Source: Lantana camara
Lineage: Eukaryota; Streptophyta; Magnoliopsida; Lamiales; Verbenaceae
DNA: 64,000 bases
Direction: 5' to 3'
Assembly (NCBI GenBank): GCA_037501455.1
Contig: CM074855.1
Span: 55,931,001-55,995,000, forward strand
Shown: in pieces, positions 1 to 30,074 of the stretch
How positions within the stretch are numbered: position 1 is the stretch's first letter
Layout: each line of letters begins with the position of its first letter
Made by a program: the position numbers and the translations under genes
The notes under the pieces: model-generated
What the model saw: only the letters and a program-made list of their open reading frames with translations
Databases searched by the model: none
Told to the model about the DNA's origin: nothing

Positions 1-3000
1 ATCGAATAATGAAGAACGAGAGGGTTATTATTTCTGAAGTATCAGTTCGTAAAATTGAAGTACTGAAAACAGAAATTGAAGTATTGTTGCATTTAACATA
101 GAGTTTGAATATTCGAAAATAAGGTGTTCCAACACAATACGATTATTGGAGCATTAAATTGAGATTCAGTAAAACCTAGGTGTCTATTCATAAAGGGCGA
201 AGTATGATTATCCGATAACAAGGTGTTCATCGGATATTTCGAAATAACGAGTGTCATTGCTTCAAAAGTATTAATTCGTAAAATTGGGATATGTATATGC
301 ATAATAAGGAGAAATAACTTAAAAACATTTCATAAAGCTAAAATCTCTACATATATTGTTAGAAACACTTGTAATTACAAGAAAGTGATGAAATATTTAG
401 GGAAAACACAAGTTCAAATTTGATCCCAACATAATATTACAATGTATTAAATCATAAATCGAATAACGAAGAACGAGAGCGTCATTATTTCTGAAGTATC
501 AGTTCGTAAAATTGAAGTACTGAAAACAAAAATTGAAGTATTGTTGAATTTAACATAGAGTTTGAATATTCGAAAATAAGGTGTTCCAACACAATACGAT
601 TATTGGAGCACTAAATTGAGATTCAGTGAAACCTAGGTGTCTATTCCTAAAGGGCGAAGTATGATTATCCGATAACAAGGTTTTCATCGGATATTTTGAA
701 ACGACGAGTGTCATTGCTTCAAAAGTATTAATTCGTAAAATTGGGATATGTATATGCATAGTAAGGAGAAATAACCTAAAAACATTTCATAAAGATGAAA
801 TCTCTACATATATTGTTAGAAACACTTGTTATTATGAGAAAGTGATTAAATATTTCGGGAAAACACAAGTTCAAATTTGATCCCAACATAATATTACAAT
901 GTATTAAATCATAAATCGAATAATGAAGAACGAGAGGGTCATTATTTCTGAAGTATCAGTTCGTAAAATTGAAGTACTGAAAACAGAAATTGAAGTATTG
1001 TTGCATTTAACATAGAGTTTGAATATTCGAAAATAAGGTGTTCCAACACAATACGATTATTGGAGCATTAAATTGAGATTCAGTAAAACCTAGGTGTCTA
1101 TTCGTAAAGGGCGAAGTATGATTATCCGATAACAAGGTGTTCATCGGATATTTCGAAATAACGAGTGTCATTGCTACAAAAGTATTAATTCATAAAATTG
1201 GGATATGTATATGCATAATAAGGAGAAATAACTTAAAAACATTTCATAAAGATGAAATCTCTAGATTTAATGTTAGAAACACTTGTAATTACGAGAAAGT
1301 GATTAAATATTTAGGGAAAACACAAGTTCAAATTTGATCCCAACATAATATTACAATGTATTAAATCATAAATCGAATAACGAAGAACGAGAGCGTCGTT
1401 ATTTATGAAGTACCAGTTCGTAAAATTGAAGTACTGAAAACAAAAATTGAAGTATTGTTGCATTTAACATAGAGTATGAATATTCGAAAATAAGGTGTTC
1501 CAACACAATACGATTATTGGAGCACTAAATTGAGATTCAGTGAAACCTAGGTGTCTATTCCTAAAGGGCGAAGTATGATTATCCGATAACAAGGTTTTCA
1601 TCGGATATTTCGAAACAACGAGTGTCATCGCTTCAAAAGTATTAATTCATAAAATTAGGATATATAAATGCATAGGAAGGAGAAATAACTTAAAAACATT
1701 TCATAAAGATGAAATCTCTACATATATTGTTAGAAACACTTGTAATTACGAGAAAGTGATTAAATATTTCGGGAAAACATAAGTTCAAATTTGATCCCAA
1801 CTTAATATTACAATGTATTAAATCATAAGTCGAATAATGAAGAACAAGAGGGTCATTATTTCTGAAGTATCAGTTCGTAAAATTGATGCACTGAAAACAG
1901 AAATTGAAGTATTGTTGCATTTAACATAGAGTTTGAATATTCGAAAATAAGGTGTTCCAACACAATACGATTATTGGAGCCTTAAATTGAGATTCAGTGA
2001 AACCTAGGTGTCTATTCGTAAAGGGCGAAGTATGATTATCCGATAACAAGGTGTTCATCGGATATTTCGAAATAACGAGTGGCGTTGCTACAAAAGTATT
2101 AATTCGTAAAATTGGGATATGTATATGCATAGTAAGGAGAAATAACTTAAAAACATTTCATAAAGATGAAATCTCTACATATATTTTTAAAAACACTTGT
2201 AATTACGAGAAAGTGATTAAATATTTCGGGAAAACACAAGTTCAAATTTGATCCCAACTTAATATTACAATGTATTAAATCATAAATCGAATAATGAAGA
2301 ACGAGAGGGTTATTATTTCTGAAGTATCAGTTCGTAAAATTGAAGTACTGAAAACAGAAATTGAAGTATTGTTGCATTTAACATAGAGTTTGAATATTCG
2401 AAAATAAGGTGTTCCAACACAATACGATTATTGGAGCATTAAATTGAGATTCAGTAAAACCTAGGTGTCTATTCATAAAGGGCGAAGTATGATTATCCGA
2501 TAACAAGGTGTTCATCGAATATTTCGAAATAACGAGTGTCATTGCTACAAAAGTATTAATTCGTAAAATTGGGATATGTATATGCATAATAAGGAGAAAT
2601 AACTTAAAAACATTTCATAAAGATAAAATCTCTACATATATTGTTAGAAACACTTGTAATTACAAGAAAGTGATGAAATATTTAGGGAAAACACAAGTTC
2701 AAATTTGATCCCAACATAATATTACAATGTATTAAATCATAAATCGAATAACGAAGAACGAGAGCGTCATTATTTCTGAAGTATCAGTTCGTAAAATTGA
2801 AGTACTGAAAACAGAAATTGAAGTATTGTTGAATTTAACATAGAGTTTGAATATTCGAAAATAAGGTGTTCCAACACAATACGATTATTGGAGCACTAAA
2901 TTGAGATTCAGTGAAACCTAGGTGTCTATTCCTAAAGGGCGAAGTATGATTATCCGTTAACAAGGTTTTCATCGGATATTTCGAAACGACGAGTGTCATT

Positions 3001-6000
3001 GCTTCAAAAGTATTAATTCGTAAAATTGGGATATGTATATGCATAGTAAGGAGAAATAACTTAAAAACATTTCATAAAGACGAAATCTCTACATATATTG
3101 TTAGAAACACTTGTTATTACGAGAAAGTGATTAAATATTTCGGGAAAACACAAGTTCAAATTTGATCCCAATATAATATTACAATGTATTAAATCATAAA
3201 TCGAATAATGAAGAACGAGAGGGTCATTATTTCTGAAGTATCAGTTCGTAAAATTGAAGTACTGAAAACAGAAATTTAAGTATTGTTGCATTTAACATAG
3301 AGTTTGAATATTCGAAAATAAGGTGTTCCAACACAATACGATGATTGGAGCATTAAATTGAGATTCAGTGAAACCTAGGTGTCTATTTGTAAAGGGCGAA
3401 GTATGATTATCCGATAACAAGGTGTTCATCGGATATTTCGAAACAACGAGTGTCATCGCTTCAAAAGTATTAATTCGTAAAATTCGGATATGTATATGCA
3501 TAATAAGGAGAAATAACTTAAAAACATTTCATAAAGATGAAATCTCTAGATATATTGTTAGAAACACTTGTAATTACGAGAAAGTGATTAAATATTTAGG
3601 GAAAACACAAGTTCAAATTTGATCCCAACATAATATTACAACGTATTAAATCATAAATCGAATAACGAAGAACGAGAGCGTCGTTATTTATGAAGTACCA
3701 GTTCGTAAAATTGAAGTACTGAAAACAAAAATTGAAGTATTGTTGCATTTAACATAGAGTATGAATATTCGAAAATAAGGTGTTCCAACACAATACGATT
3801 ATTGGACCCTTAAATTGAGATACAGTGAAACCTAGGTGTCTATTCGTAAAGGGCGAAGTATGATTATCCGATAACAAGGTGTTCATCGGATATTTCGAAA
3901 CAACGAGTGTCATCGCTTCAAAAGTATTAATTCATAAAATTAGGATATATAAATTCATAGGAAGGAGAAATAACTTAAAAACATTTCATAAAGATGAAAT
4001 CTCTACATATATTGTTAGAAACACTTGTAATTACGAGAAAGTGATTAAATATTTCGGGAAAACATAAGTTCAAATTTGATCCCAACTTAATATTACAATG
4101 TATTAAATCATAAGTCGAATAATGAAGAACAAGAGGGTCATTATTTCTGAAGTATCAGTTCGTAAAATTGATGCACTGAAAACAGAAATTGAAGTATTGT
4201 TGCATTTAACATAGAGTTTGAATATTCGAAAATAAGGTGTTCCAATACAATACGATTATTGGAGCCTTAAATTGAGATTCAGTGAAACCTAGGTGTCTAT
4301 TCGTAAAGGGCGAAGTATGATTATCCGATAACAAGGTGTTCATCGGATATTTCGAAATAACGAGTGTCATTGCTACAAAAGTATTAATTCGTAAAATTGG
4401 GATATGTATATGCATAATAAGGAGAAATAACTTAAAAACATTTCATAAAGATGAAATCTCTAGATATATTGTTAGAAACACTTGTAATTACGAGAAAGTG
4501 ATTAAATATTTAGGGAAAACACAAGTTCAAATTTGATCCCAACATAATATTACAATGTATTAAATCATAAATCGAATAACGAAGAACGAGAGCGTCGTTA
4601 TTTATGAAGTACCAGTTCGTAAAATTGAAGTACTGAAAACAAAAAATGAAGTATTGTTCCATTTAACATAGAGTATGAATATTCGAAAATAAGGTGTTCC
4701 AACACAATACGATTATTGGACCCTTAAATTGAGATTCAGTGAAACCTAGGTGTCTATTCGTAAAGGGCGAAGTATGATTATCCGATAACAAGGTGTTCAT
4801 CGGATATTTCGAAACAACGAGTGTCATCGCTTCAAAAGTATTAATTCATAAAATTAGGATATATAAATGCATAGGAAGGAGAAATAACTTAAAAACATTT
4901 CATAAAGATGAAATCTCTACATATATTGTTAGAAACACTTGTAATTACGAGAAAGTGATTAAATATTTCGGGAAAACATAAGTTCAAATTTGATCCCAAC
5001 TTAATATTACAATGTATTAAATCATAAGTCGAATAATGAAGAACAAGAGGGTCATTATTTCTGAAGTATCAGTTCGTAAAATTGATGCACTGAAAACAGA
5101 AATTGAAGTATTGTTGCATTTAACATAGAGTTTGAATATTCGAAAATAAGGTGTTCCAACACAATACGATTATTGGAGCCTTAAATTGAGATTCAGTGAA
5201 ACCTAGGTGTCTATTCGTAAAGGGCGAAGTATGATTATCCGATAACAAGGTGTTCATCGGATATTTCGAAATAACGAGTGGCGTTGCTACAAAAGTATTA
5301 ATTCGTAAAATTGGGATATGTATATGCATAGTAAGGAGAAATAACTTAAAAACATTTCATAAAGATGAAATCTCTACATATATTTTTAAAAACACTTGTA
5401 ATTACGAGAAAGTGATTAAATATTTCGGGAAAACACAAGTTCAAATTTGATCCCAACTTAATATTACAATGTATTAAATCATAAATCGAATAACGAAGAA
5501 CGAGAGGGTCATTATTTCTGAAGTATCAGTTCGTAAAATTGAAGTACTGAAAACAGAAATTGAAGTATTGTTGCATTTAACATAGAGTTTGAATATTCGA
5601 AAATAAGTTGTTCCAACATAATACGATTATTGGAGCATTAAATTGAGATTCAGTGAAACCTAGGTGTCTATTCCTAAAGGGCGAAGTATGATTATCCGTT
5701 AACAAGGTTTTCATCGGATATTTCGAAACGACGAGTGTCATTGCTTCAAAAGTATTAATTCGTAAAATTGGGATATGTATATGCATAGTAAGGAGAAATA
5801 ACTTAAAAACATTTCATAAAGATGAAATCTCTACATATATTGTTAGAAACACTTGTTATTACGAGAAAGTGATTAAATATTTCGGGAAAACACAAGTTCA
5901 AATTTGATCCCAACTTAATATTACAATGTGTTAAATCATAAATCGAATAATGAAGAACGAGAGGGTTATTATTTCTGAAGTATCAGTTCGTAAAATTGAA

Positions 6001-7050
6001 GTACTGAAAACAGAAATTGAAGTATTGTTGCATTTAACATAGAGTTTGAATATTCGAAAATAAGGTGTTCCAACACAATACGATTATTGGAGCATTAAAT
6101 TGAGATTCAGTAAAACCTAGGTGTCTATTCATAAAGGGCGAAGTATGATTATCCGATAACAAGGTGTTCATCGGATATTTCGAAATAACGAGTGTCATTG
6201 CTACAAAAGTATTAATTCGTAAAATTGGGATATGTATATGCATAATAAGGAGAAATAACTTAAAAACATTTCATAAAGATAAAATCTCTACATATATTGT
6301 TAGAAACACTTGTAATTACAAGAAAGTGATGAAATATTTAGGGAAAACACAAGTTCAAATTTGATCCCAACATAATATTACAATGTATTAAATCATAAAT
6401 CGAATAACGAAGAACGAGAGCGTCATTATTTCTGAAGTATCAGTTCGTAAAATTGAAGTACTGAAAACAGAAATTGAAGTATTGTTGAATTTAACATAGA
6501 GTTTGAATATTCGAAAATAAGGTGTTCCAACACAATACGATTATTGGAGCACTAAATTGAGATTCAGTGAAACCTAGGTGTCTATTCCTAAAGGGCGAAG
6601 TATGATTATCCGTTAACAAGGTTTTCATCGGATATTTCGAAACGACGAGTGTCATTGCTTCAAAAGTATTAATTCGTAAAATTGGGATATGTATATGCAT
6701 AGTAAGGAGAAATAACTTAAAAACATTTCATAAAGACGAAATCTCTACATATATTGTTAGAAACACTTGTTATTACGAGAAAGTGATTAAATATTTCGGG
6801 AAAACACAAGTTCAAATTTGATCCCAACATAATATTACAATGTATTAAATCATAAATCGAATAATGAAGAACGGGAGGGTCATTATTTCTGAAGTATCAG
6901 TTCGTAAAATTGAAGTACTGAAAACAGAAATTTAAGTATTGTTGCATTTAACATAGAGTTTGAATATTCGAAAATAAGGTGTTCCAACACAATACGATTA
7001 TTGGAGCATTAAATTGAGATTCAGTAAAACCTAGGTGTCTATTCGTAAAG
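1..7050 (+). repeat. 457-bp satellite array, block 1
   Basis: About 15.4 head-to-tail monomers of 457 bp, AT-rich, each carrying the same landmarks: CCTAGG, the dyad TATCCGAT...ATCGGATA, and GGTGTTCCAACAC. Monomers differ by scattered substitutions. Related sub-blocks recur: the tract around 2280-3290 returns 3,656 bp (8 monomers) later at about 5936-6946, and A/B-type alternation with a 914-bp period is visible at 3422-5250. No gene is supported here. The short open frames on both strands are frame shadows of the repeat. The last five bases (TAAAG, 7046-7050) are the target site duplicated by element 1. The array runs off the left edge of the window. Confidence 0.97.
223..679 (+). repeat. 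Representative satellite monomer (457 bp)
   Basis: One repeat unit, phased from GTGTTCATCGG. Two stretches half a unit apart are recognisably related: CATTGCTTC... (for example at 712) and CATTATTTCTG... (at 483 and 940), spaced 229 and 228 bp, align without gaps over 39 bp at roughly 70% identity. This points to origin from a ~228-bp ancestor by dimerisation. An 8-bp perfect inverted repeat with a 12-base spacer straddles the phase point in most monomers. A CCTAGG site occurs in nearly every unit. Confidence 0.9.
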
Positions 7051-7515
7051 TGTAGCACCCCAACGGTGAGGCACCACACCCCCGCACTATGACCCGACAC
7101 GTGGTACGAAATGGAAAGTCCGCACACGCACCAAGTCACAGCGAACGGGTGACAAACGAAAAAAACCAACCAAAGCTAGGCGGTAACTAAAACCCTGTAC
7201 AAGTAAAATAAGCAAAACCCGAATGCGGAAGCGATGCAAAATATGAACTAACAAAAACTTTAATCAACGAACATAAATAAACGGGTTCAACTAACCCACA
7301 CCCTGTCCTAACCTGTCCCGAAAATTCATGTAATCCAAGCATAAGTATCATCTTGTACAGAACATACTATATACATAATTATCATAAATAAATCAGAACA
7401 AAATACCTAGCAAAATCAAACAGACCGACACAGACTCGACAGACCAGACTCAAAGCCGCCTAGCTCGAACTCCAACAATTGGTACCTGCAACTAAAAACA
7501 TAGGTGGGGCGAGGG

Positions 7516-7531
7516 TCAGTCCACTGACTGA
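7516..7531 (-). other. Conserved LTR stem-loop, element 1 left LTR
   Basis: Six-base arms TCAGTC and GACTGA enclose a 4-base loop. Equivalent stem-loops occur at matching positions in elements 3, 4 and 5. A second copy lies at 12851-12866 in the right LTR. The function is unknown. Confidence 0.6.
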
Positions 7532-8228
7532 GCGAGGGGGCTGAACTCACACACACTATACATAATAAGGAGCAGAGCACGTATCAAAAGAAAGATTATG
7601 AACCGGGAGTAGGGTTTTGCATACCAAAACCATTTTCAAATCGAACTTATACATATCATATCAAATCAAACTTATACATATCTTATCTTATTCATAACTT
7701 AACAAACTGAGCATACTCATATTTATTAAGAGAGAAAGCTCCTATCCCGTTTCATAATCAACATAACATATCATAATCATATACCCGGCGAGTACGGGTC
7801 TCCCACCTTACTTCCATATCGAATCATACGTATCAAATCGGAAAACAAACAAATATCATAAACAATCCAACCCCAACACCATGTAGTTCGGGGAGCAAAC
7901 CCTCACTACTCATACAGATACAAACACACACGGGGTAGCGAACCCACACTGTGCCTTCCCCGGTTATCCACCGAGGGCTCAAGATACTACGCCTTCCCAA
8001 CCTCCCTAGGTCGCACGTGAATATCTCAAATGAGAACGTGCACAGGGGTCATAACCGGCGACCCCATGGTCGTCCCGGGTCCCCCTTACCCACGTCTCGG
8101 GGCCCAACATATCAAAACAGAGCATATCAGAACAGATCATATCATAACTCGCTACATATCAAACTTATCATATCGAATCAAAATCATACTTACGTACCTT
8201 ATCGGAGCATACCATACCTTGCAACTTA

Positions 8229-8307
8229 GCATATGCTATAAACGTACCTCTCCGTGTCATCCTAATCCGCAGCTGGTATGAAGACACACGGTTTGGAGCA
8301 TAGCCTC
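8229..8307 (-). other. 79-bp block conserved among LTR families (element 1)
   Basis: In element sense the block runs from GAGGCTATGCTCCAAACCG to TATAGCATATGC. The same block without any indel lies in element 4 (45291-45369, 52506-52584) and element 5 (56054-56132), differing at only a handful of positions while the surrounding LTR sequence is far more diverged. The second element 1 copy is at 13564-13642. It includes the inverted pair CCGTGT and ACACGG. It could be a promoter or RNA element; no function can be assigned from sequence. Confidence 0.7.
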
Positions 8308-8499
8308 GTTGCAAAACATTTCAAGCTTACATATGCTCGTACATATACAGTTCGAAAACCTTTAATCGTATGACAAATTCATAAACATATCATATAAACA
8401 CGTATCTATTATATAAATATAATAGAATAATCGCATGCAGGCTTGAAAACGAGCACAGAATGTTGTAGGTCGCTGTAACTAAAACAAAATTCCTAAAAC

Positions 8500-9320
8500 C
8501 TCACCTTTCACCGACGAAACGGAAAACCTGAGCCAAGAAGCCCCACTGGAACCCAAACAGCTGACAGACACTCCCAGGAAAACCCCTGAACAACACAACG
8601 AAACGGACCTACTGTCCCAAAGTCGCCGGAAAGCCACCACCGTGGCCGGCCGAACAGCCACCGACCGCCACCGGAACACCGCCTCCGGTGGTCGGAAAAA
8701 TCCCCGGAAGGACAGAAACAAGCGCCTCGGCCGTTGGAAAGCCCGTAACGAGCCCTACCAAAGCCCCAAGTCAAATCGCCGGAAAGATCGCCGGAAAATC
8801 GGACCGCCGGTCCAGGCCGGTCCGCCACCGGTTCGCCGCCGCCGGCCGGTTCTCGGGTTGGGGCCAACGCCATCCGCTACGTTTCGATATTCTGAACAAC
8901 TTCCGTGAAGGAACCACCACCAAAAACCCACCGGAAAAGGGCCAAATCCGCCGCCAAACGTCCGCCGGTGCGCCACTCGCCGGAACCGCCACCTACGCCG
9001 CGATTCGTCCCAATCTGATGCCGGAAATGGATTCAGGAGGTCGAAAACGTCCGGAAACCACCAAACCCCGTCGGAAAAAGTCGCCGGAAAGCGGCGAAAC
9101 ACGCCGCTACAGTAACCGCCGCCGCCGTCGCGAGCTTCAGGCGGCGCGTGCGGCCTCCTCGCCGCCCCGTTGGCGGCGCCGTCTGTCCAGAAATTCACGC
9201 CAGGAGCTCCTTTACCTAGGTGGGTGGCGCGTGTCGCCGGAAGTCCGCCGGAGACCGCCGCGAATGGGCGGCGAAGTGGCGGGGGTTCCGCCTAGCCGCC
9301 GCTGCGTCTGAAATTCGGCG
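8500..9320 (-). other. GC-rich CGCCGGAAA-repeat segment of element 1 LTR
   Basis: This is an abrupt GC-rich stretch within an otherwise AT-rich window, dominated by CGCCGG, CCGGAAA and inverted pieces such as GGACC-GCC-GGTCC near 8800. The counterpart is at about 13835-14655. The composition produces long open frames on both strands (207 codons plus, 147 codons minus) with low-complexity Arg/Pro/Gly-rich products. I see no domain and treat it as non-coding LTR sequence. Confidence 0.6.
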
Positions 9321-9852
9321 ATTCAGTCGCCGTCGGTCGTCGGTTGGCCGAGATTCTTGTACCATCGTGACGGGCTCGTCGAGCTGATAAATTTCCACTA
9401 ATGGTTCGTCGAATTCCGTCGAGAAACGAGGGAGAACGGGCATGTGTGTGTAAACACACCTCCACTGCGTGTGAATAGTGCTGATCGCTGGAGAAGACGA
9501 TGCTGGGGCTGATCTGATCTTTGGCACGCAAAACGAGGAAATCCGAGTATATATCTCGGGTTCTCGTACGCAAAAACGATCAAACGAACGAGCTAACGAC
9601 ATCCGAATTGGGCAAACTTAGAGTCTACGGACTCGTTTCGCCGCCCCGGACGCGTTGAAGGGGTCAAAGAGGTCAAAATCTCAACCGAACAAGAAGTGAC
9701 CGGAAAACCCCTAAAAGAGAAAAATGCAAACAAGCCCCTAAACTCTTAAAGAGTTCAAAATAGGGCCACGAAAAATATAAAATCACACAATTAAACACAT
9801 TAAAAGGTTGAAACGTAGCGTACCGTACAAATTGGACGAGCGGGATGTCACA

Positions 9853-9865
9853 AACTCCCCTCCTT
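9853..9865 (-). promoter_or_regulatory. Polypurine tract of element 1
   Basis: In element sense this is AAGGAGGGGAGTT, directly abutting the TG of the 3' LTR. It is the expected primer site for plus-strand DNA synthesis and confirms minus-strand orientation. Confidence 0.8.
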
Positions 9866-10164
9866 CAAAAGGACCTGTCCTCAGGTCCTATTACTGAGTC
9901 GGAAAGCTTCGAACTGAAGCATTTCAATCCATCTCCTGAAATCGTGTAGAGTCATAGCCCTGGATGTGAAGTTTACTCCCATTGTTTACTTAAACTTCCT
10001 TCAGAGTTCCGTAGTCACAGAAGTTTGTTCAAACAGTTGACCATTGGTCGCTTCAAACTTGTTCGATCCCCCACTAGGCCACTGCACCCAAGGCTCGAAA
10101 TCGTCGCTTCTTCACCGGTTGCAAACCAACAACAGGCCACGCAAAACTCAACCGCGACAAACAA

Positions 10165-10510
10165 GAGAGAATCACATCTCTCAGCACACAAGAAAGAGAG
10201 AACCCCGTCTCCCAGCAGATCAAAGGAGAGAACCCCGTCTCTCAACCACGTAATCGAGAGAGCCCCGTCTCTCAACCTAGGTCTGGCAGACTTCCACATC
10301 TTCCAAACATTCTAGTTTGAGAAAATCCAGCATTTCTCAAACCCCCTAAATTCGAGAGAATCCAGCATCTCCCAAATATCTAACTCCAAGAGAATCCAGC
10401 ATCTCTTGCTCACATAATTAGAAAGAATCCAACATCTTTCTATCACATAAATAGGGAGAATCCCACATCTCCCTAACACGTAAATAGAGAGAGATCTCAA
10501 CAACTCTCTA
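10165..10510 (-). repeat. Covarying hairpin array, element 1
   Basis: About ten short inverted repeats follow each other every 30-60 bp. Plus-strand arm pairs include GAGAGA/TCTCTC (10165-10182), TTTGAGAAA/TTTCTCAAA (10316-10341), AAGAGA/TCTCTT (10388-10407), GAAAGA/TCTTTC (10421-10440) and AGGGAGA/TCTCCCT (10453-10474). The arms change from copy to copy while staying complementary. In element sense several copies read GAGAGACGGGGTTCTCTC, identical to copies in element 4 at 49559-49730. The array lies some 300 bp upstream of the polypurine tract. Confidence 0.8.
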
Positions 10511-11239
10511 GCACACAAGTTCACTTACACAGCATTCAAACATACGCACATCAAAATAACACATGATGCAAAACATGGGATGCATGTGTAGTGTACCTTT
10601 ACCCAACTGATATCGGTGTCCCTAGAGTATCGACTCATCATCCATGCTCAACTCAAGGGGGATATCGCGATGGAATCTCTGTAAAATAAAATCACAATAT
10701 GCTTGTAGGTGCATGAAGGATTAGTGAGTAACCAAAGAAATTATAAGCACTGAAGCACGGATAGTTCAAGCAAGCAGGTAATCCATTCAGTTTACAAAAA
10801 TTCACAACAACAACAATTTTAAAGTTATGAAAATTACAGCAGTTAGTCACGTTATTAAACTCGAGCAACATCAAACATTACACATTGTCACATATGTCAA
10901 GCAAAAATATTTATAATTACTTATGAAATGCATGAGTGCAAATGCCATGGATGCTCAATGTACCGTTCACCGTAGTAGTGGAGTCGAGGTTGGCAATTTC
11001 TTTAACTTGAAAGGTTAATCAACTCCTTAACTGGCCATAGTTCCAACTTCCCGTTCAAACTTGCATTCTTTAGTATTCCTTCAGAGTCTCGGGTACTCAA
11101 CTGATCTTGGATCGTCTCACTTGATTCTCGGAGTATAGTGATCCGTGTAATCTCTTGAAATCCCAATAGAATCCTCGGTAATCGGAAATCACCATTCTTT
11201 CACGGTAAAATCTCTCAAGACAATCGTGGAGAGATAAAT

Positions 11240-11770
11240 GAAGAATCCTTACACAATCTTGCTTAGTACACCGTCGTCGTGGTTGATATTCTTATCCTCA
11301 ATATTTGGTGAAGTTGTTCTTCAATGACCTCGGCATAAAATTCCACAGCTTACACAACTTTCCCCTTTTTCCTTTGTGTAGTGCAACTACTCTGGTAGGT
11401 GTCTTTATAACAGTAACCTGATTTCCTGCTTTGAATTCTCTGAATGGTACAATTGCCTTGATCTTTTCATTGTCACTTCACGCCATCCAGAGTTAGAAAT
11501 TCTGGCTTTCTTATAAAACATGTACTCCCGAGCACCTCCAAATAATAAGTACCTACCCTGAGGCACCCTTATAGTTAAAGGATCTCTTATCTCTCTCATA
11601 TTCGAGTATCTTCTTTTATCCACTCACTACCCTGACTGTGTTAGCTTGATCATACATCATCTGATTAACCCCTGTTCGAATCCCAATGTTGCTTCCACTA
11701 AAATCGATCCTCGTTGGAACAGGTAAGGAAGTCACCTAAATATAACCATAGAGCTAATGCATGTGGGGTT
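11240..11770 (-). pseudogene. Decayed integrase remnant (element 1 pol)
   Basis: On the minus strand, fragments in shifting frames and separated by stops echo the integrase of element 3 in the right order. A GDFLTCSNEDRF stretch resembles the GIP...SDRDPRF region around the second catalytic Asp. Next come a short TLGFEQGLIR stretch (compare [10 protein letters not shown], around the catalytic Glu), YLLFGGAREYMFY (compare [15 protein letters not shown]), then REFKAGNQVTVIK...GKRGKL (compare [12 protein letters not shown]...GKGGKL), and a weak GPY/F-like tail. Stops and internal deletions exclude function. This is my alignment by eye and is not certain. Confidence 0.45.
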
Positions 11771-11922
11771 AGGGATGTGAATGGCGTGCACTCATATCCA
11801 GCAAAGAAGGCAATCAAGCCCGTAGAACAAATGTCCAAAATAATTAAAATTTACTCCAATGCATGATGCACGTGCCATGTATGCATAATACCCGTTTCCA
11901 TAGCAGTAGCATTGATTCCTTG

Positions 11923-12051
11923 TTATAATTTCTTGTAAAGGTCCACTTGCTTCTCATCCAAGTAGTCAGAAAACGGAAGTTTCAAATCTTCCTTCATAAT
12001 TTTGTAGAAGTAGGAAGTGTTGTCTCGATCAACTTCAATTTTTGACATCAT
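11923..12051 (-). CDS. Short ORF in element 1 leader, unknown
   Basis: A 42-codon ORF begins with two consecutive ATG codons about 320 bp downstream of the primer-binding site and ends in TAA. The product is charged (MMSKIEVDRDNTSYFYK...), with no signal peptide or membrane segment. It sits where gag would start in an autonomous element. I recognise no family. It could be a gag relic or a chance frame. Confidence 0.2.
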   Translation of the reverse strand: MMSKIEVDRDNTSYFYKIMKEDLKLPFSDYLDEKQVDLYKKL

Positions 12052-12303
12052 GGCAACACCCTATAATTCACAAATGGACTAAATATCTATGCATGTGGGT
12101 TAGTACGTGGGTATGTCAAGTAATGAAAGCAATTAAGAACACTTAAGTAATGAAGATGCAATACGTAATTTAATAAAATTTAATCGTAACAATAATAATT
12201 TTACAAAAATTGTAATCATAGTGTGCGCACAATCACATAAGCTCAGACAAATTCATACATACAAGTCAAAATTTCACGTCTGCCAAATGCAATGCACAAG
12301 TAT

Positions 12304-12321
12304 TCCTATGCCGTACGACCT
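12304..12321 (-). other. Conserved leader motif of element 1
   Basis: In element sense this is AGGTCG-ACGGCATAGGA-like sequence about 45 bp downstream of the primer-binding site. Near-identical motifs at nearly the same spacing occur in element 3 (37017-37034) and element 4 (46663-46680). It is a candidate packaging or dimerisation signal by position only. Confidence 0.55.
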
Positions 12322-12366
12322 AAACTGACACGACACGACTCCAGAGCACCGGTTCTGAACCTGGTA

Positions 12367-12378
12367 GCTCTGATACCA
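12367..12378 (-). promoter_or_regulatory. tRNA-iMet primer-binding site, element 1
   Basis: In element sense TGGTATCAGAGC, complementary to the 3' end of plant initiator-methionine tRNA, 7 bp inside the 5' LTR. It sets the minus-strand orientation. Confidence 0.9.
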
Positions 12379-12385
12379 CTTAAGA

Positions 12386-15187
12386 TGTAGCACCCCAACG
12401 GTGAGGCACCACACCCCCGCACTATGACCCGACACGTGGTACGAAATGGAAAGTCCGCACACGCACCAAGTCACAGCGAACGGGTGACAAACGAAAAAAA
12501 CCAACCAAAGCTAGGCGGTAACTAAAACCCTGTACAAGTAAAATAAGCAAAACCCGAATGCGGAAGCGATGCAAAATATGAACTAACAAAAACTTTAATC
12601 AACGAACATAAATAAACGGGTTCAACTAACCCACACCCTGTCCTAACCTGTCCCGAAAATTCATGTAATCCAAGCATAAGTATCATCTTGTACAGAACAT
12701 ACTATATACATAATTATCATAAATAAATCAGAACAAAATACCTAGCAAAATCAAACAGACCGACACAGACTCGACAGACCAGACTCAAAGCCGCCTAGCT
12801 CGAACTCCAACAATTGGTACCTGCAACTAAAAACATAGGTGGGGCGAGGGTCAGTCCACTGACTGAGCGAGGGGGCTGAACTCACACACACTATACATAA
12901 TAAGGAGCAGAGCACGTATCAAAAGAAAGATTATGAACCGGGAGTAGGGTTTTGCATACCAAAACCATTTTCAAATCGAACTTATACATATCATATCAAA
13001 TCAAACTTATACATATCTTATCTTATTCATAACTTAACAAACTGAGCATACTCATATTTATTAAGAGAGAAAGCTCCTATCCCGTTTCATAATCAACATA
13101 ACATATCATAATCATATACCCGGCGAGTACGGGTCTCCCACCTTACTTCCATATCGAATCATACGTATCAAATCGGAAAACAAACAAATATCATAAACAA
13201 TCCAACCCCAACACCATGTAGTTCGGGGAGCAAACCCTCACTACTCATACAGATACAAACACACACGGGGTAGCGAACCCACACTGTGCCTTCCCCGGTT
13301 ATCCACCGAGGGCTCAAGATACTACGCCTTCCCAACCTCCCTAGGTCGCACGTGAATATCTCAAATGAGAACGTGCACAGGGGTCATAACCGGCGACCCC
13401 ATGGTCGTCCCGGGTCCCCCTTACCCACGTCTCGGGGCCCAACATATCAAAACAGAGCATATCAGAACAGATCATATCATAACTCGCTACATATCAAACT
13501 TATCATATCGAATCAAAATCATACTTACGTACCTTATCGGAGCATACCATACCTTGCAACTTAGCATATGCTATAAACGTACCTCTCCGTGTCATCCTAA
13601 TCCGCAGCTGGTATGAAGACACACGGTTTGGAGCATAGCCTCGTTGCAAAACATTTCAAGCTTACATATGCTCGTACATATACAGTTCGAAAACCTTTAA
13701 TCGTATGACAAATTCATAAACATATCATATAAACACGTATCTATTATATAAATATAATAGAATAATCGCATGCAGGCTTGAAAACGAGCACAGAATGTTG
13801 TAGGTCGCTGTAACTAAAACAAAATTCCTAAAACCTCACCTTTCACCGACGAAACGGAAAACCTGAGCCAAGAAGCCCCACTGGAACCCAAACAGCTGAC
13901 AGACACTCCCAGGAAAACCCCTGAACAACACAACGAAACGGACCTACTGTCCCAAAGTCGCCGGAAAGCCACCACCGTGGCCGGCCGAACAGCCACCGGC
14001 CGCCACCGGAACACCGCCTCCGGTGGTCGGAAAAATCCCCGGAAGGACAGAAACAAGCGCCTCGGCCGTTGGAAAGCCCGTAACGAGCCCTACCAAAGCC
14101 CCAAGTCAAATCGCCGGAAAGATCGCCGGAAAATCGGACCGCCGGTCCAGGCCGGTCCGCCACCGGTTCGCCGCCGCCGGCCGGTTCTCGGGTTGGGGCC
14201 AACGCCATCCGCTACGTTTCGATATTCTGAACAACTTCCGTGAAGGAACCACCACCAAAAACCCACCGGAAAAGGGCCAAATCCGCCGCCAAACGTCCGT
14301 CGGTGCGCCACTCGCCGGAACCGCCACCTACGCCGCGATTCGTCCCAATCTGATGCCGGAAATGGATTCAGGAGGTCGAAAACGTCCGGAAACCACCAAA
14401 CCCCGTCGGAAAAAGTCGCCGGAAAGCGGCGAAACACGCCGCTACAGTAACCGCCGCCGCCGTCGCGAGCTTCAGGCGGCGCGTGCGGCCTCCTCGCCGC
14501 CCCGTTGGCGGCGCCGTCTGTCCAGAAATTCACGCCAGGAGCTCCTTTACCTAGGTGGGTGGCGCGTGTCGCCGGAAGTCCGCCGGAGACCGCCGCGAAT
14601 GGGCGGCGAAGTGGCGGGGGTTCCGCCTAGCCGCCACTGCGTCTGAAATTCGGCGATTCCGTCGCCGTCGGTCGTCGGTTGGCCGAGATTCTTGTACCAT
14701 CGTGACGGGCTCGTCGAGCTGATAAATTTCCACTAATGGTTCGTCGAATTCCGTCGAGAAACGAGGGAGAACGGGCATGTGTGTGTAAACACACCTCCAC
14801 TGCGTGTGAATAGTGCTGATCGCTGGAGAAGACGATGCTGGGGCTGATCTGATCTTTGGCACGCAAAACGAGGAAATCCGAGTATATATCTCGGGTTCTC
14901 GTACGCAAAAACGATCAAACGAACGAGCTAACGACATCCGAATTGGGCAAACTTAGAGTCTACGGACTCGTTTCGCCGCCCCGGACGCGTTGAAGGGGTC
15001 AAAGAGGTCAAAATCTCAACCGAACGAGAAGTGACCGGAAAACCCCTAAAAGAGAAAAATGCAAACAAGCCCCTAAACTCTTAAAGAGTTCAAAATAGGG
15101 CCACGAAAAATATAAAATCACACAATTAAACACATTAAAAGGTTGAAACGTAGCGTACCGTACAAATTGGACGAGCGGGATGTCACA
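12386..15187 (-). repeat. Element 1 LTR (5' LTR in element sense)
   Basis: This LTR is 2,802 bp and the same length as 7051-9852, with about five substitutions between them (for example near 13998, 14300, 14636, 14660 and 15026). It carries the same stem-loop, 79-bp block and GC-rich segment as the left LTR. Confidence 0.95.
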
Positions 15188-18100
15188 TAAAGGGCGAAGT
15201 ATGATTATCCGATAACAAGGTGTTCATCGGATATTTCGAAATAACGAGTGTCATTGCTACAAAAGTATTAATTCGTAAAATTGGGATATGTATATGCATA
15301 GTAAGGAGAAATAACTTAAAAACATTTCATAAAGATGAAATCTCTACATATATTGTTAGAAACACTTGTTATTACGAGAAAGTGATTAAATATTTCGGGA
15401 AAACACAAGTTCAAATTTGATCCCAACTTAATATTACAATGTGTTAAATCATAAATCGAATAATGAAGAACGAGAGGGTTATTATTTCTGAAGTATCAGT
15501 TCGTAAAATTGAAGTACTGAAAACAGAAATTGAAGTATTGTTGCATTTAACATAGAGTTTGAATATTCGAAAATAAGGTGTTCCAACACAATACGATTAT
15601 TGGAGCATTAAATTGAGATTCAGTAAAACCTAGGTGTCTATTCCTAAAGGGCGAAGTATGATTATCCGTTAACAAGGTTTTCATCGGATATTTCGAAACG
15701 ACGAGTGTCATTGCTTCAAAAGTATTAATTCGTAAAATTGGGATATGTATATGCATAGTAAGGAGAAATAACTTAAAAACATTTCATAAAGATGAAATCT
15801 CTACATATATTGTTAGAAACACTTGTTATTACGAGAAAGTGATTAAATATTTCGGGAAAACACAAGTTCAAATTTGATCCCAACATAATATTACAATGTA
15901 TTAAATCATAAATCGAATAATGAAGAACGGGAGGGTCATTATTTCTGAAGTATCAGTTCGTAAAATTGAAGTACTGAAAACAGAAATTTAAGTATTGTTG
16001 CATTTAACATAGAGTTTGAATATTCGAAAATAAGGTGTTCCAACACAATACGATTATTGGAGCATTAAATTGAGATTCAGTAAAACCTAGGTGTCTATTC
16101 GTAAAGGGCGAAGTACGATTATCCGATAACAAGGTGTTCATCGGATATTTCGAAATAACGAGTGTCATTGCTACAAAAGTATTAATTCGTAAAATTGGGA
16201 TATGTATATGCATAATAAGGAGAAATAACTTAAAAACATTTCATAAAGATGAAATCTCTAGATATATTGTTAGAAACACTTGTAATTACGAGAAAGTGAT
16301 TAAATATTTAGGGAAAACACAAGTTCAAATTTGATCCCAACATAATATTACAACGTATTAAATCATAAATCGAATAACGAAGAACGAGAGCGTCGTTATT
16401 TATGAAGTACCAGTTCGTAAAATTGAAGTACTGAAAACAAAAATTGAAGTATTGTTGCATTTAACATAGAGTATGAATATTCGAAAATAAGGTGTTCCAA
16501 CACAATACGATTATTGGACCCTTAAATTGAGATACAGTGAAACCTAGGTGTCTATTCGTAAAGGGCGAAGTATGATTATCCGATAACAAGGTGTTCATCG
16601 GATATTTCGAAACAACGAGTGTCATCGCTTCAAAAGTATTAATTCATAAAATTAGGATATATAAATGCATAGGAAGGAGAAATAACTTAAAAACATTTCA
16701 TAAAGATGAAATCTCTACATATATTGTTAGAAACACTTGTAATTACGAGAAAGTGATTAAATATTTCGGGAAAACATAAGTTCAAATTTGATCCCAACTT
16801 AATATTACAATGTATTAAATCATAAGTCGAATAATGAAGAACAAGAGGGTCATTATTTCTGAAGTATCAGTTCGTAAAATTGATGCACTGAAAACAGAAA
16901 TTGAAGTATTGTTGCATTTAACATAGAGTTTGAATATTCGAAAATAAGGTGTTCCAATACAATACGATTATTGGAGCCTTAAATTGAGATTCAGTGAAAC
17001 CTAGGTGTCTATTCGTAAAGGGCGAAGTATGATTATCCGATAACAAGGTGTTCATCGGATATTTCGAAATAACGAGTGGCTTTGCTACAAAAGTATTAAT
17101 TCGTAAAATTGGGATATGTATATGCATAGTAAGGAGAAATAACTTAAAAACATTTCATAAAGATGAAATCTCTACATATATTGTTAGAAACACTTGTAAT
17201 TACGAGAAAGTGATTAAATATTTCGGGAAAACATAAGTTCAAATTTGATCCCAACTTAATATTAAAATGTATTAAATCATAAATCGAATAATGAAGAACG
17301 AGAGGGTCATTATTTCTGAATTATCAGTTCGTAAAATTGATGTACTGAAAACATAAATTGAAGTATTGTTGCATTTAACATAGAGTTTGAATATTCGAAA
17401 ATAAGGTGTTCCAACACAATACGATTATTGGAGCATTAAATTGAGATTCAGTGAAACCTAGGTGTCTATTCGTAAAGGGCGAAGTATGATTATCCGATAA
17501 CAAGGTGTTCATCGGATATTTCGAAACAACGAGTGTCATCGCTTCAAAAGTATTAATTCGTAAAATTGGAATATATATATATGCATAGTAAGGAGAAATA
17601 ACTTAAAAACATTTCATAAAGATGAAATCTCTACATATATTTTTAGAAACACTTGTAATTACGAGAAAGTGATTAAATATTTCGGGAAAACATAAGTTCA
17701 AATTTGATCCCAACATAATATTAGAATGTATTAAATCATAAATCGAATAACGAAGAACGAGAGCGTCTTTATTTATGAAGTACCAGTTCGTAAAATTGAA
17801 GTACTGAAAACAAAAATTGAAGTATTGTTGCATTTAACATAGAGTATGAATATTCGAAAATAAGGTGTTCCAACACAATACGATTATTGGAGCCTTAAAT
17901 TGGGATTCAGTGAAACCTAGGTGTCTATTCGTAAAGGGCGAAGTATGATTATCCGATAAGAAGGTGTTCATCGGATATTGTGAAACAATGAGTGTCATCG
18001 CTTCAAAAGTATTAATTCATAAAATTAGGATATATAAATGCATAGGAAGGAGAAATAACTTAAAAACATTTCATAAAGATGAAATCTCTACATATATTGT

Positions 18101-21100
18101 TAGAAACACTTGTAATTACGAGAAAGTGATTAAATATTTCGGGAAAACATAAGTTCAAATTTGATCCCAACTTAATATAACAATGTATTAAATCATAAGT
18201 CGAATAATGAAGAACAAGAGGGTCATTATTTCTGAAGTATCAGTTCGTAAAATTGATGCACTGAAAACAGAAATTGAAGTATTGTTGCATTTAACATAGA
18301 GTTTGAATATTCGAAAATAAGGTGTTCCAACAGAATACGATTATTGGAGCCTTAAATTGAGATTCAGTGAAACCTAGGTGTCTATTCGTAAAGGGCGAAG
18401 TATGATTATCCGATAACAAGGTGTTCATCGGATATTTCGAAATAACGAGTGGCATTGCTACAAAAGTATTAATTCGTAAAATTGGGATATGTATATGCAT
18501 AATAAGGAGAAATAACTTGAAAACATTTCATAAAGATGAAATCTCTACATATATTGTTAGAAACACTTGTAATTATGAGAAAGTGATTAAATATTTAGGG
18601 AAAACACAAGTTCAAATTTGATCCCAACATAATATTACAATGTACTAAATCATAAATCGAATAACGAAGAACGAGAGCGTCTTTATTTATGAAGTACCAG
18701 TTCGTAAAATTGAAGTACTGAAAACAAAAATTGAAGTATTGTTGCATTTAACATAGAGTATGAATATTCGAAAATAAGGTGTTCCAACACAATACGATTA
18801 TTGGACCCTTAAATTGAGATACAGTGAAACCTAGGTGTCTATTCGTAAAGGGCGAAGTATGATTATCCGATAACAAGGTGTTCATCGGATATTTCGAAAC
18901 AACGAGTGTCATCGCTTCAAAAGTATTAATTCATAAAATTAGGATATATAAATGCATAGGAAGGAGAAATAACTTAAAAACATTTCATAAAGATGAAATC
19001 TCTACATATATTGTTAGAAACACTTGTAATTACGAGAAAGTGATTAAATATTTCGGGAAAACATAAGTTCAAATTTGATCCCAACTTAATATTACAATGT
19101 ATTAAATCATAAGTCGAATAATGAAGAACAAGAGGGTCATTATTTCTGAAGTATCAGTTCGTAAAATTGATGCACTGAAAACAGAAATTGAAGTATTGTT
19201 GCATTTAACATAGAGTTTGAATATTCGAAAATAAGGTGTTCCAATACAATACGATTATTGGAGCCTTAAATTGAGATTCAGTGAAACCTAGGTGTCTATT
19301 CGTAAAGGGCGAAGTATGATTATCCGATAACAAGGTGTTCATCGGATATTTCGAAATAACGAGTGGCTTTGCTACAAAAGTATTAATTCGTAAAATTGGG
19401 ATATGTATATGCATAGTAAGGAGAAATAACTTAAAAACATTTCATAAAGATGAAATCTCTACATATATTGTAAGAAACACTTGTAATTACGAGAAAGTGA
19501 TTAAATATTTCGGGAAAACGTAAGTTCAAATTTGATCCCAACTTAATATTAAAATGTATTAAATCAGAAATCGAATAATGAAGAACGAGAGGGTCATTAT
19601 TTCTGAATTATCAGTTCGTAAAATTGATGTACTGAAAACATAAATTGAAGTATTGTTGCATTTAACATAGAGTTTGAATATTCGAAAATAAGGTGTTCCA
19701 ACACAATACGATTATTGGAGCATTAAATTGAGATTCAGTGAAACCTAGGTGTCTATTCGTAAAGGGCGAAGTATGATTATCCGATAACAAGGTGTTCATC
19801 GGATATTTCGAAACAACGAATGTCATCGCTTCAAAAGTATTAATTCGTAAAATTGGGATATATATATATGCATAGTAAGGAGAAATAAATTAAAAACATT
19901 TCATAAAGATGAAATCTCTACATATATTTTTAGAAACACTTGTAATTACGAGAAAGTGATTAAATATTTCGGGAAAACATAAGTTCAAATTTGATCCCAA
20001 CATAATATTACAATGTATTAAATCATAAATCGAATAACGAAGAACGAGAGCGTCTTTATTTATGAAGTACCAGTTCGTAAAATTGAAGTACTGAAAACAA
20101 AAATTGAAGTATTGTTGCATTTAACATAGAGTATGAATATTCGAAAATAAGGTGTTCCAACACAATACGATTATTGGAGCCTTAAATTGGGATTCAGTGA
20201 AACCTAGGTGTCTATTCGTAAAGGGCGAAGTATGATTATCCGATAACAAGGTGTTCATCGGATATTTTGAAGCAATGAGTGTCATCGCTTCAAAAGTATT
20301 AATTCATAAAATTAGGATATATAAATGCATAGGAAGGAGAAATAACTTAAAAACATTTCATAAAGATGAAATCTCTACATATATTGTTAGAAACACTTGT
20401 AATTACGAGAAAGTGATTAAATATTTCGGGAAAACATAAGTTCAAATTTGATCCCAACTTAATATTACAATATATTAAATCATAAGTCGAATAATGAAGA
20501 ACAAGAGGGTCATTATTTCTGAAGTATCAGTTCGTAAAATTGATGCACTGAAAACAGAAATTGAAGTATTGTTGCATTTAACATAGAGTTTGAATATTCG
20601 AAAATAAGGTGTTCCAACACAATACGATTATTGGAGCCTTAAATTGAGATTCAGTGAAACCTAGGTGGCTATTCGTAAAGGGCGAAGTATGATTATCCGA
20701 TAACAAGGTGTTCATCGGATATTTCGAAATAACGAGTGGCATTGCTACAAAAGTATTAATTCGTAAAATTGGGATATGTATATGCATAATAAGGAGAAAT
20801 AACTTGAAAACATTTCATAAAGATGAAATCTCTACATATATTGTTAGAAACACTTGTAATTATGAGAAAGTGATTAAATATTTAGGGAAAACACAAGTTC
20901 AAATTTGATCCCAACATAATATTACAATGTATTAAATCATAAATCGAATAACGAAGAACGAGAGCGTCATTATTTATGAAGTACCAGTTCGTAAAATTGA
21001 AGTACTGAAAACAAAATTTGAAGTATTGTTGCATTTAACATAGAGTATGAATATTCGAAAATAAGGTGTTCCAACACAATACGATTATTGGAGCCTTAAA

Positions 21101-21350
21101 TTGAGATTCAGTGAAACCTAGGTGTCTATTCGTAAAGGGCGAAGTATGATTATCCGATAACAAGGTGTTCATCGGATATTTCGAAACAACGAGTGTCATC
21201 ACTTCAAAAGTATTAATTCATAAAATTAGGATATATAAATGCATAGGAAGGAGAAATAACTTAAAAACATTTCATAAAGATGAAATCTCTACATATATTG
21301 TTAGAAACACTTGTAATTACGAGAAAGTGATTAAATATTTCGGGAAAACA
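15188..21350 (+). repeat. 457-bp satellite array, block 2
   Basis: About 13.5 monomers, in exact phase with block 1 once element 1 and one copy of TAAAG are removed. From 16591 the tract is organised as a five-monomer unit repeated twice. No gene is seen. The final AAACA (21346-21350) is the target site of element 2. Confidence 0.97.
16591..21164 (+). repeat. Five-monomer higher-order repeat, two copies of 2,287 bp
   Basis: Copy 1 is 16591-18877 and copy 2 is 18878-21164. The period is 5 x 457 + 2, the extra two bases coming from an expanded TATATATATATGCAT in one monomer (near 17575 and 19862). Corresponding monomers are nearly identical between copies and share private variants such as GTGGCTTTGCTAC, while the five monomers within a copy differ from one another. 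A third copy begins at 21165 and is cut by element 2. Confidence 0.85.
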
Positions 21351-21592
21351 TGTGACACCCCGACTTATCGACGGTACAGGTATGACGTATTTGCGCAATT
21401 AAAATTATTATTTGTGTATTTTATATTTATTTAATGGTTTATTTTTTTTATTATGTGAATTTGTTTATGTGCTCGTTTCTTGTTTTCGATGTCGTTTGTT
21501 GTGGTTTCAAAGTGCTTGAACCGTTTTGGACCTACAGGAGGCTAAAAGGTATTTAGCGCACCTTGGGTTCCGGTAAGCATATTTTGAGCTCG

Positions 21593-21612
21593 GGAATTCG
21601 GATTCGAATTCC
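21593..21612 (+). other. GATT-loop palindrome in element 2
   Basis: Arms GGAATTCG and CGAATTCC are perfectly complementary around GATT. The element 4 LTR has the same sequence, and the element 5 LTR has a covaried version with arms AACTCG and CGAGTT. It lies just after the conserved TTGAGCTCGG. Confidence 0.65.
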
Positions 21613-22430: not shown

Positions 22431-22550
22431 GAGGTCGCGACCGTTTTCGCTACAGATTTGTTCGAGGTCGCGACCACCTGGATTTTTCTCTACGATTTGC
22501 TGGTAGAGACCTCGACCAGTTTGTGTGCAAATTTGGTAGAGACCTCGACC
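22431..22550 (+). repeat. Palindrome cluster in element 2 LTR
   Basis: Four related short motifs: GAGGTCGCGACC at 22431-22442 and 22464-22475 (core GGTCGCGACC is a perfect palindrome), then GAGACCTCGACC at 22506-22517 and 22539-22550. The other LTR families have analogous clusters with different sequences. Confidence 0.65.
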
Positions 22551-29650: not shown

Positions 29651-30074
29651 TGTAGCACCCGGAACGCCAGGCACCACATCCCCCGCACTATAGCCCCAAT
29701 CCACATATGAAACGGACAATCCATACATGAATCACAGCTACAGCGAACGGGAGACAATAAAATGACTCAAGGCTAGGCGGGTACCCTCAATTTAAAACCA
29801 ACCAATATGCAATACAGAGTATTTAAAAGCGGAAGCAATACATTCAATAGATACGTATAGGTTCCATATTTATTTATTTACGTATAGATACCAACGTTTA
29901 CACTATCAATACAATGTCATCCGTCAACAAAATAGACAATAGGGCGATACAAAATATCCCAAACCTCTATACAATCAAAATGTGGGAATGAAGTGTGCTA
30001 GACCCAAATTTAAAGACCAAATGACTCTAAATTCCCGCCTAGCACGCCCTGCAAAACACTGAAAAGTTGAGGTG

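Follow-up and report, generated by a model that had tools for sequence, protein, structure and literature searches.

Tandem hairpins with compensated stems upstream of the polypurine tract in pol-less long terminal repeat retrotransposons of Lantana camara

Element 1, a non-coding long terminal repeat (LTR) retrotransposon in a 64-kb stretch of Lantana camara contig CM074855.1 (the window; 64,000 nucleotides), carries an array of 11 hairpins on its minus (sense) strand, 10 of them sound and one mismatched, with stems of 6-11 bp, at positions 10165-10510. Arrays of this kind recur across the genome in elements without pol. Comparison of the copies supports selection on pairing, in a non-coding part of the RNA of such elements, and, in element 1, selection at the RNA level; very probably, the array is a structure of the sense RNA that has been selected. 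Packaging is a possible job for it, though a doubtful one. An earlier note, made from the letters of this DNA, had reported about ten tandem hairpins with changing stems in a non-coding element and had proposed selection on an RNA structure. All five stem pairs that it quoted are present at 10165-10510, so that its observation is confirmed; its interpretation is partly supported, the genome copies favoring selection on structure, at the RNA level, in a non-coding element. The note placed the array just upstream of the polypurine tract; it does lie upstream, at 0.3-0.65 kb, but the distance in element 1 is really about 300 nt.

The hairpins of the window are listed below; for element 1, the number of copies with all pairs formed refers to 40 aligned copies of the array, described further on.

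10485 to 10510, minus strand: h1, 7 bp, with a longer loop of 12 nt; all pairs in 39 of 40 copies
10452 to 10475, minus strand: h2, TAGGGAGA/TCTCCCTA, loop TGTGGGAT; all pairs in 39 of 40
10419 to 10442, minus strand: h3, TAGAAAGA/TCTTTCTA, loop TGTTGGAT; all pairs in 39 of 40
10387 to 10408, minus strand: h4, CAAGAGA/TCTCTTG, loop TGCTGGAT; all pairs in 38 of 40
10350 to 10377, minus strand: h5, 10 bp including G.U, loop TGCTGGAT; all pairs in 37 of 40
10314 to 10343, minus strand: h6, TTTGAGAAA/TTTCTCAAA, loop TGCTGGAT; all pairs in 39 of 40
10282 to 10307, minus strand: h7, degenerate; 37 of 40 copies have an A.G mismatch, 2 have A.A and 1 is paired
10252 to 10277, minus strand: h8, GGTTGAGAGA/TCTCTCGATT, loop CGGGGC; all pairs in 37 of 40
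10226 to 10243, minus strand: h9, GAGAGA/TCTCTC, loop CGGGGT; all pairs in 38 of 40
10196 to 10213, minus strand: h10, GGGAGA/TCTCTC, loop CGGGGT; all pairs in 31 of 40, a gap at the first pair in 8
10165 to 10182, minus strand: h11, GAGAGA/TCTCTC, loop TGTGAT; all pairs in 38 of 40
49559 to 49722, plus strand: array of element 3, six related hairpins (k1-k6), loops mostly CGGGGT

The loops thus read TGCTGGAT, TGTTGGAT or TGTGGGAT in h2-h6 and CGGGGT, CGGGGC or TGTGAT in h8-h11. When the 3' arms were exchanged among the 11 units of element 1, the arms in their own places gave a stem sum of 78, against a mean of 48.8, and none of 20000 shuffles reached 78; pairing is therefore kept while the stems change, as the earlier note had claimed. 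Six stems in the array have a length of 6 or more, where shuffles have 0.79 and none of 300 reaches six; three have a length of 7 or more, where shuffles have 0.25 and 2 of 300 reach three. Within h2-h6 identity is 0.875 in the loops, 0.80 at pairs 1-4 and 0.45-0.50 at pairs 5-8. The strand asymmetry of element 1 is clear, with 9 G.U against 0 A.C. With the hairpins of element 3, a second non-coding element of the window, added (17 units), both sides have changed at 7 of 9 pairs, and the covariation score is 0.256; shuffles give 0.167, with 2 of 500 attaining the observed score, and sliding the partner gives 0.068-0.173. Folding, a check that the earlier note had named, gave a z of -7.6 for the plus strand in a first test; a second test gave -6.23 for the antisense and -4.25 for the sense strand. 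When the interior of element 1 was folded in 120-nt steps and scored against mononucleotide shuffles, the h1-h7 half was the sole strong minimum (z -4.2 and -4.5). The array of element 3 was dropped as an independent proof of covariation, its units hardly varying (arm exchange by itself, p 0.2); its hairpin count is ordinary (5 against 3.74 in shuffles, 62 of 300 reaching 5), and in 120-nt steps its z is -2.4 and -0.9 only.

The window's own assembly (1.27 Gb) was searched for further copies of the element 1 array, and the window's copy was aligned with 39 others; these 40 are the best of 3298 candidates, were thus selected by likeness of the array, and are 93-100% identical. Ten of the 11 hairpins form all pairs in 31-39 of the 40 copies, and h7 does so in one. 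Variants found in three or more copies, here called shared, have probably passed through replication; they occupy 5 of 174 columns in stems, 8 of 84 in loops, 20 of 88 in spacers and 100 of 326 downstream. Singletons, in contrast, are similar per column in stems (0.17), loops (0.21) and spacers (0.18), and higher downstream (0.56), where the copies had not been selected for likeness. The ratio of shared to single variants in the stems (5:29) differs from that in the spacers (20:16; Fisher 4.5e-4) and downstream (100:181; Fisher 0.019), whereas that in the loops (8:18) does not differ significantly from the spacers (0.07). All five shared stem variants are steps between G.U and Watson-Crick pairs that pair in the sense strand, against one of the five in the antisense strand; of the single stem variants 12 of 27 pair in the sense and 10 of 27 in the antisense strand, and of the two-copy variants 1 of 6 and 3 of 6. 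This contrast between shared and single variants in sense pairing (Fisher 0.046) is suggestive only. Three copies carry one double change each, each in a single copy. Covariation, whose absence across copies the earlier note had named as speaking against its claim, is significant among the units and between sequence clusters, but among the copies of element 1 it is limited to the shared G.U steps and the three single-copy double changes.

The array is not confined to element 1. An exact two-hairpin pattern, GAGACGGGGTTCTC-N8-32-GAGACGGGGTTCTC, has 9155 matches in the genome and its reversed control none; several matches are possible per array, and the 30 loci inspected, the first listed of the 9155, represent 26 places. 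A polypurine tract and LTR start were found downstream by script in 27 of the 30 loci (24 of the 26 places); at L149 and L150, which are one place, a hairpin before the tract and the purine tract itself are visible by eye, and L155 continues into what appears to be another LTR. The compensated stems differ between sequence clusters: L144 alternates GAAAGA/TCTTTC and GAGAGA/TCTCTC, L146 has TTTGAGAAA/TTTCTCA and L149 has TTTGAGGGA/TCCCTCAAA. Together with elements 1 and 3, these loci gave 72 distinct loop-anchored units. The loop has six nt in 58 units and eight nt in 14, and of these 14 at least two are not hairpins of the array; for the stem run over pairs 2-6, no shuffle reaches the observed value in either loop class. 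The 36 units lacking the core used as bait behave alike (stem run 146 against 109.5, 0 of 5000 shuffles).

A second pattern, independent of the array, combines a polypurine tract with an LTR start; it matches 7530 times, and its control not at all. From 100 of these that were listed we took 40 ends in two series with steps of five, one series starting at the first match and the other at the third, each end with 700 nt upstream; all lie on one contig and share one LTR start, different from that of element 1, and hence the sample is not random. With an array scored as present at three or more hairpin cores, 21 of the 25 ends without pol carry one (3-9 cores), against none of the 15 in which pol homologous to that of element 2 precedes the tract (Fisher 9.6e-8). 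The earlier note had named absence of the array from most family members as what would speak against it; most pol-less ends possess it. Sixty distinct loop-anchored units from this sample have a stem run over pairs 2-6 of 256 against 229.3, a value that none of 10000 shuffles reaches; 14 shuffles reach it for the six-nt loops alone and 74 for the nine units with eight-nt loops alone. The count of simple paired cells stands out less (282 against 275.3, 11 shuffles reaching). Core-to-core spacing is 27-34 nt in 89 of 100 cases, with a median of 30. Across the clan of array-bearing elements, an array consists of 3-11 short hairpins that are rich in G in the loop ([C/T]GGGG or TGNNGGAT) and mostly follow one another at 27-34 nt. 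Their pairing is kept by way of compensatory and G.U changes; their place is upstream of the polypurine tract and, in elements with a gag match, downstream of gag.

Such a match stands upstream of the array at L146 and L163 (244 of 407 and 233 of 464 aligned positions), with CCHC motifs, interrupted frames and no pol match in the stretch examined, and L182, one of the sampled array ends, keeps the end of gag along with four cores. The clan therefore seems to include gag-only as well as non-coding members. Element 2, the window's element with a complete gag-pol frame, also has CCHC motifs; as a carrier of the array it is ruled out, since no array core was found at any of 30 loci of its family (inspected among the best 150 scored of 22597 candidates). 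Elsewhere, a protein-based search of viral contigs gave no relatives of the element 2 pol piece, and a two-hairpin pattern had no match there; a 16-base hairpin pattern matched 56 viral contigs, once each, and these matches were taken for chance. A degenerate two-hairpin pattern matched, in genome contigs, three bacterial metagenome-assembled genomes. A pattern for the sequence before the polypurine tract, modeled partly on common plant elements, had no match, and Rfam covariance models had none over 9800-12420 at E 5 or below.

It is quite possible, although somewhat less likely than not, that the array is a multivalent RNA element of a pol-less clan related to plant chromoviruses, by which the RNA captures Gag supplied in trans. 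A protein would bind the hairpins through their G-rich loops, carried on stems of free sequence, and the many copies would give avidity. Gag or its nucleocapsid, supplied by other elements, would be the most likely partner, because the class depends on the particles of other elements, because nucleocapsids bind G-rich loops and because the relatives with a gag match share the array. In Ty3, moreover, both untranslated regions (UTRs) and POL take part in RNA localization and packaging (PMC11381356), so that loss of pol would leave a gap to be filled. The array would act as a packaging signal for mobilization in trans and would make up for the lost pol region and the lost cis preference, perhaps replacing packaging determinants that lie partly in POL in yeast Ty3. 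A bolder version, which we consider rather unlikely in its entirety, is that a pol-less clan of thousands of copies (a number extrapolated to the genome) lives by a modular array that replaces the packaging determinants of pol and outcompetes autonomous relatives for Gag; the hairpin found directly before the polypurine tract may then be the ancestral, one-site version and the array its amplified form. The packaging signals even of yeast Ty3 are described as not precisely defined (PMC11381356). For the way in which the RNA of the abundant non-autonomous LTR elements of plants comes to be chosen by the proteins of others, the array is a concrete, testable candidate, being characteristic of the dependent class and absent from the pol-bearing class in the samples.

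Several observations weigh against this reading or limit the evidence for the array. Hairpin density alone is no proof, because the same scan finds 5-6 stems of length 7 or more in other 351-bp stretches of the window, including the satellite. Element 1 folds with a stronger z in the antisense than in the sense strand, and element 3 is like its shuffles in the sense strand (z -0.41; antisense -7.82), an outcome ascribed to the G- and T-rich composition of the sense strand, which lets shuffles pair well. The h8-h11 step of element 1 is ordinary (z -0.6). The count of further pair types among the 17 units of elements 1 and 3 is not raised (11 against 12.1). For the 60 units of the array-independent sample, the G.U to A.C count (19:10) is near that of shuffles (26.6:16.8), and the argument for the sense strand therefore rests on element 1. 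Four of the 25 pol-less ends have no core at all (L174, L176, L181 and L204); when clusters at more than 80% identity are counted instead of ends, 10 of the 14 without pol and 0 of the 3 with pol have an array, a contrast that is borderline (hypergeometric about 0.05), and the pol-bearing ends other than element 2 were viewed for 700 nt only. Element 2, a possible helper, has no copy of the array hairpins, and sequences for packaging and dimerization at the 5' end are given as a common feature of Ty1, Ty3 and HIV-1 (PMC11381356).

The main rival is an effect on RNA export or stability, whereby the array would recruit a host factor that protects or exports RNAs lacking a long frame; the viral constitutive transport element is a model for such recruitment. 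We regard this as unlikely, even though the array lies in the 3' non-coding part, only pol-less RNAs, which would be poor mRNAs, carry it in our sample, and binding of a host factor would account for the conserved loops as well as Gag does. The relatives with a gag match, which also carry the array, do not fit easily, although both gag frames inspected are interrupted. The position upstream of the polypurine tract would also suit a part in reverse transcription, the purine arms (GAGAGA, GGGAGA) serving as extra plus-strand primers or the hairpins positioning strand transfer. Sireviruses hold several copies of the polypurine tract in this place, with an inverted repeat proposed as a guide for RNase H (PMC2829016), and the tract of Ty3 reads GAGAGAGAGGAAGA (PMC11381356). 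Extra primers, however, require no complementary arm, yet the arms covary, and the sampled pol-bearing relatives manage what is presumably the same reverse transcription without the array, which makes this explanation improbable.

Pairing could also have arisen with no selection, if template switching or repair copied one arm onto the other and tandem amplification spread the palindromes. The perfect double changes in the L144 array, where GAAAGA/TCTTTC stands beside GAGAGA/TCTCTC, and those in three single copies of element 1 are what such a process would leave; but the shared changes of element 1 are single G.U steps (0 of 5 are double), the stems vary less than the spacers while singletons are about equal in both, and in h2-h6 the loops are kept far better than the outer stem pairs. 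A mutational origin is, in our judgment, as improbable as a part in reverse transcription. Least of all do we expect a role at the DNA level or in silencing, in which the repeats would be palindromic sites for proteins, form cruciforms or, as hairpins, give rise to small RNAs, although the palindromes in maize Sirevirus LTRs attract small RNAs (PMC10760457) and the element 1 array folds better than shuffles on both strands: the array is outside the LTR, its shared changes keep G.U pairs in the sense strand, as is characteristic of RNA, and palindromic DNA sites would keep the letters of the arms rather than their pairing. Multiple polypurine tracts, DNA palindromes and palindrome correction are thus all ranked below capture of Gag by the array.

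In the window, the array is set among three LTR retrotransposons, all of them young, which have inserted into a 457-bp satellite.

1-7050, 15188-21351, 24076-29648, 39679-42565, 53812-54903 and 59006-64000: arrays of the 457-bp satellite, host of all three insertions
7051 to 15187, minus strand: element 1, 8.1 kb, target-site duplication TAAAG on both sides
12386 to 15187, minus strand: 5' LTR of element 1, 2802 bp; 5 differences in 2802 from the other LTR
12367 to 12378, minus strand: primer binding site of element 1, TGGTATCAGAGC, presumably of the initiator tRNA-Met type
9855 to 9865, minus strand: polypurine tract of element 1
7051 to 9852, minus strand: 3' LTR of element 1, from the comparison of the LTR pair and the duplication TAAAG
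29651 to 39679, minus strand: element 2
32267 to 36847, minus strand: complete gag-pol frame of element 2, with gag, protease, reverse transcriptase, RNase H, integrase, SH3 and a weak chromodomain match
42566 to 53813, plus strand: element 3, target-site duplication GTGAA, LTRs of about 4.03 kb

A literature search for a satellite with a period of 457 bp gave no match. No frame of 120 aa or more starts inside the 2.5-kb interior of element 1 (9853-12385), which has no match better than E 1.3 to four gag-pol pieces of element 2; no coding domain was found there, and so element 1 has no gag-pol or chromodomain of its own. The interior of element 3 likewise has no frame of 120 aa, and neither element 1 nor element 3 has a gag match. 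The LTRs of element 3 differ at 11 positions in a BLAST alignment of 4039 bp that includes 6 bases outside the LTR. As their LTR pairs are young, elements 1 and 3 were recently copied although they are non-coding. Their interiors share only the array and a region next to the primer site (BLAST E 1e-4); in element 3 the array ends 58 nt from the LTR start. Scanned in four pieces, the frame of element 2 gave gag, protease, reverse transcriptase, RNase H and the integrase domains H2C2 (zinc-binding) and SH3_Tf2-1 above cut-off, whereas the integrase core rve (23.5 against 32.6) and the chromodomain PF00385, in its expected place (E 9.4e-5, 22.7 bits against 25.1), are below it; element 2 is probably an autonomous chromovirus without the array. 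The likely kinship of element 1 with the chromoviruses rests on its LTR ends, its leader and the hairpin before its polypurine tract. Solo-LTR-like remains at 54904-58990 and 21352-24075 are related piecewise to the LTRs of elements 1, 2 and 3. Imperfect palindromes occur inside the LTRs of element 2 (31157-31285; 133 aligned, 74%) and element 3 (44386-44437; 54 aligned, 81%). A stretch in the element 1 LTR, 9061-9320, with a copy in the other LTR, is very G+C-rich by eye and has open frames of 121-207 aa on both strands, of which composition is probably the cause.

Two further features accompany the array at the 3' end, a 14-base motif (block A) and a hairpin directly before the polypurine tract.

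10959 to 10972, minus strand: block A of element 1, CGGTGAACGGTACA, exact
49334 to 49347, plus strand: block A of element 3, 1 mismatch
9870 to 9889, minus strand: pre-tract hairpin of element 1, AGGACCTG-AGGA-CAGGTCCT
32250 to 32268, minus strand: pre-tract hairpin of element 2, GAATCTGG-GGA-CCAGATTC; it overlaps the stop codon of pol at 32267-32269
49745 to 49762, plus strand: pre-tract hairpin of element 3, GAATCCG-AGGA-CGGATTC

Block A, with up to 2 mismatches, stands upstream of the array in 29 of the 30 pattern loci (25 of 26 places). Among the sampled ends, 18 of the 25 without pol have it; the 15 with pol all lack it, as does element 2. All three elements possess the pre-tract hairpin, and a search for its best register located one in every one of the 40 sampled ends. 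Its 11 stem/loop types there, which include those of elements 2 and 3 as well as GGACCTGG-GGA-CCAGGTCC and GGATCTGG-GGA-CCAGATCC, have compensated stems and a loop that is mostly (A/G)GGA; 5 of the 40 contain 1-2 mismatches. Because it is found both with and without pol, this hairpin probably serves something common, such as recognition of the tract. About 100 nt before the LTR, a conserved block with GACGGGGAGTTGCTAACCC and CGTGGGATGAACACG was seen in L170 and L204 and in the array loci L147, L148, L153 and L162; it could form a hairpin, CGTG-GGATGAA-CACG.

Non-coding LTR elements and tandem repeats at the 3' end are known, and the earlier note's remark that it knew of no such family may hold for the array itself but not for the kinds of element that carry it, LARDs and TR-GAG elements being known already. 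In the open-licence literature searched, no description was found, for elements without pol, of an array of covarying hairpins ahead of the polypurine tract, and the array appears new in that literature. Sireviruses are reported to have palindromic motifs in the LTR, several copies of the polypurine tract and, at the tract, an inverted repeat (PMC2829016), and the array resembles them in its repeated palindromic motifs and in the hairpin at the tract (PMC2829016, PMC10760457). Sireviruses, however, belong to Ty1/copia, and their palindromes, mostly with CGG-CCG cores, lie in the LTR (in some also near an envelope gene), whereas the array lies outside the LTR and has GAGA..TCTC cores; the arms of their inverted repeat flank the boundary, the first preceding the tract and the second lying in the LTR, while the hairpin described here ends before the tract. 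The 3' untranslated regions of Tat/Ogre elements contain hypervariable tandem repeats that seed satellites, also between the coding region and the 3' LTR (PMC7004042); unlike those repeats, the array conserves its loops and its pairing across clusters. With Ty3 the array-bearing elements share the superfamily and the initiator tRNA-Met primer, and packaging of Ty3 depends on regions of its RNA; the available part of the account of Ty3 genomic RNA structure describes no comparable array (PMC11381356). TR-GAG elements carry only gag, or gag and protease (PMC6022998), and L146, L163 and L182 may be similar, since in the stretch examined each shows a match to gag ahead of the array but none to pol; no array is mentioned for TR-GAG elements in the portion of that source at hand, and elements 1 and 3 have no gag match.

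Element 1 has three features by which LARDs are recognized: it is an LTR element of at least 2 kb without coding domains, it has kept a primer site and polypurine tract, and its interior appears, by sequence evidence, to conserve an RNA secondary structure. The name stands for large retrotransposon derivatives and reportedly goes back to Kalendar et al. in 2004; LARDs have long LTRs. We know of no description of the LARD structure as a tandem array of covarying hairpins. From the young LTR pairs we infer that element 1 is mobilized by the proteins of an autonomous element. Both LARDs and TRIMs are LTR groups without coding capacity whose RNA structures are said to be well conserved, and element 1 is like a LARD in being non-coding, in its core domain, in its assumed mobilization in trans and in its conserved RNA structure (PMC7215508). 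It departs from them in that the array is present also in relatives with a gag match and across many sequence clusters.
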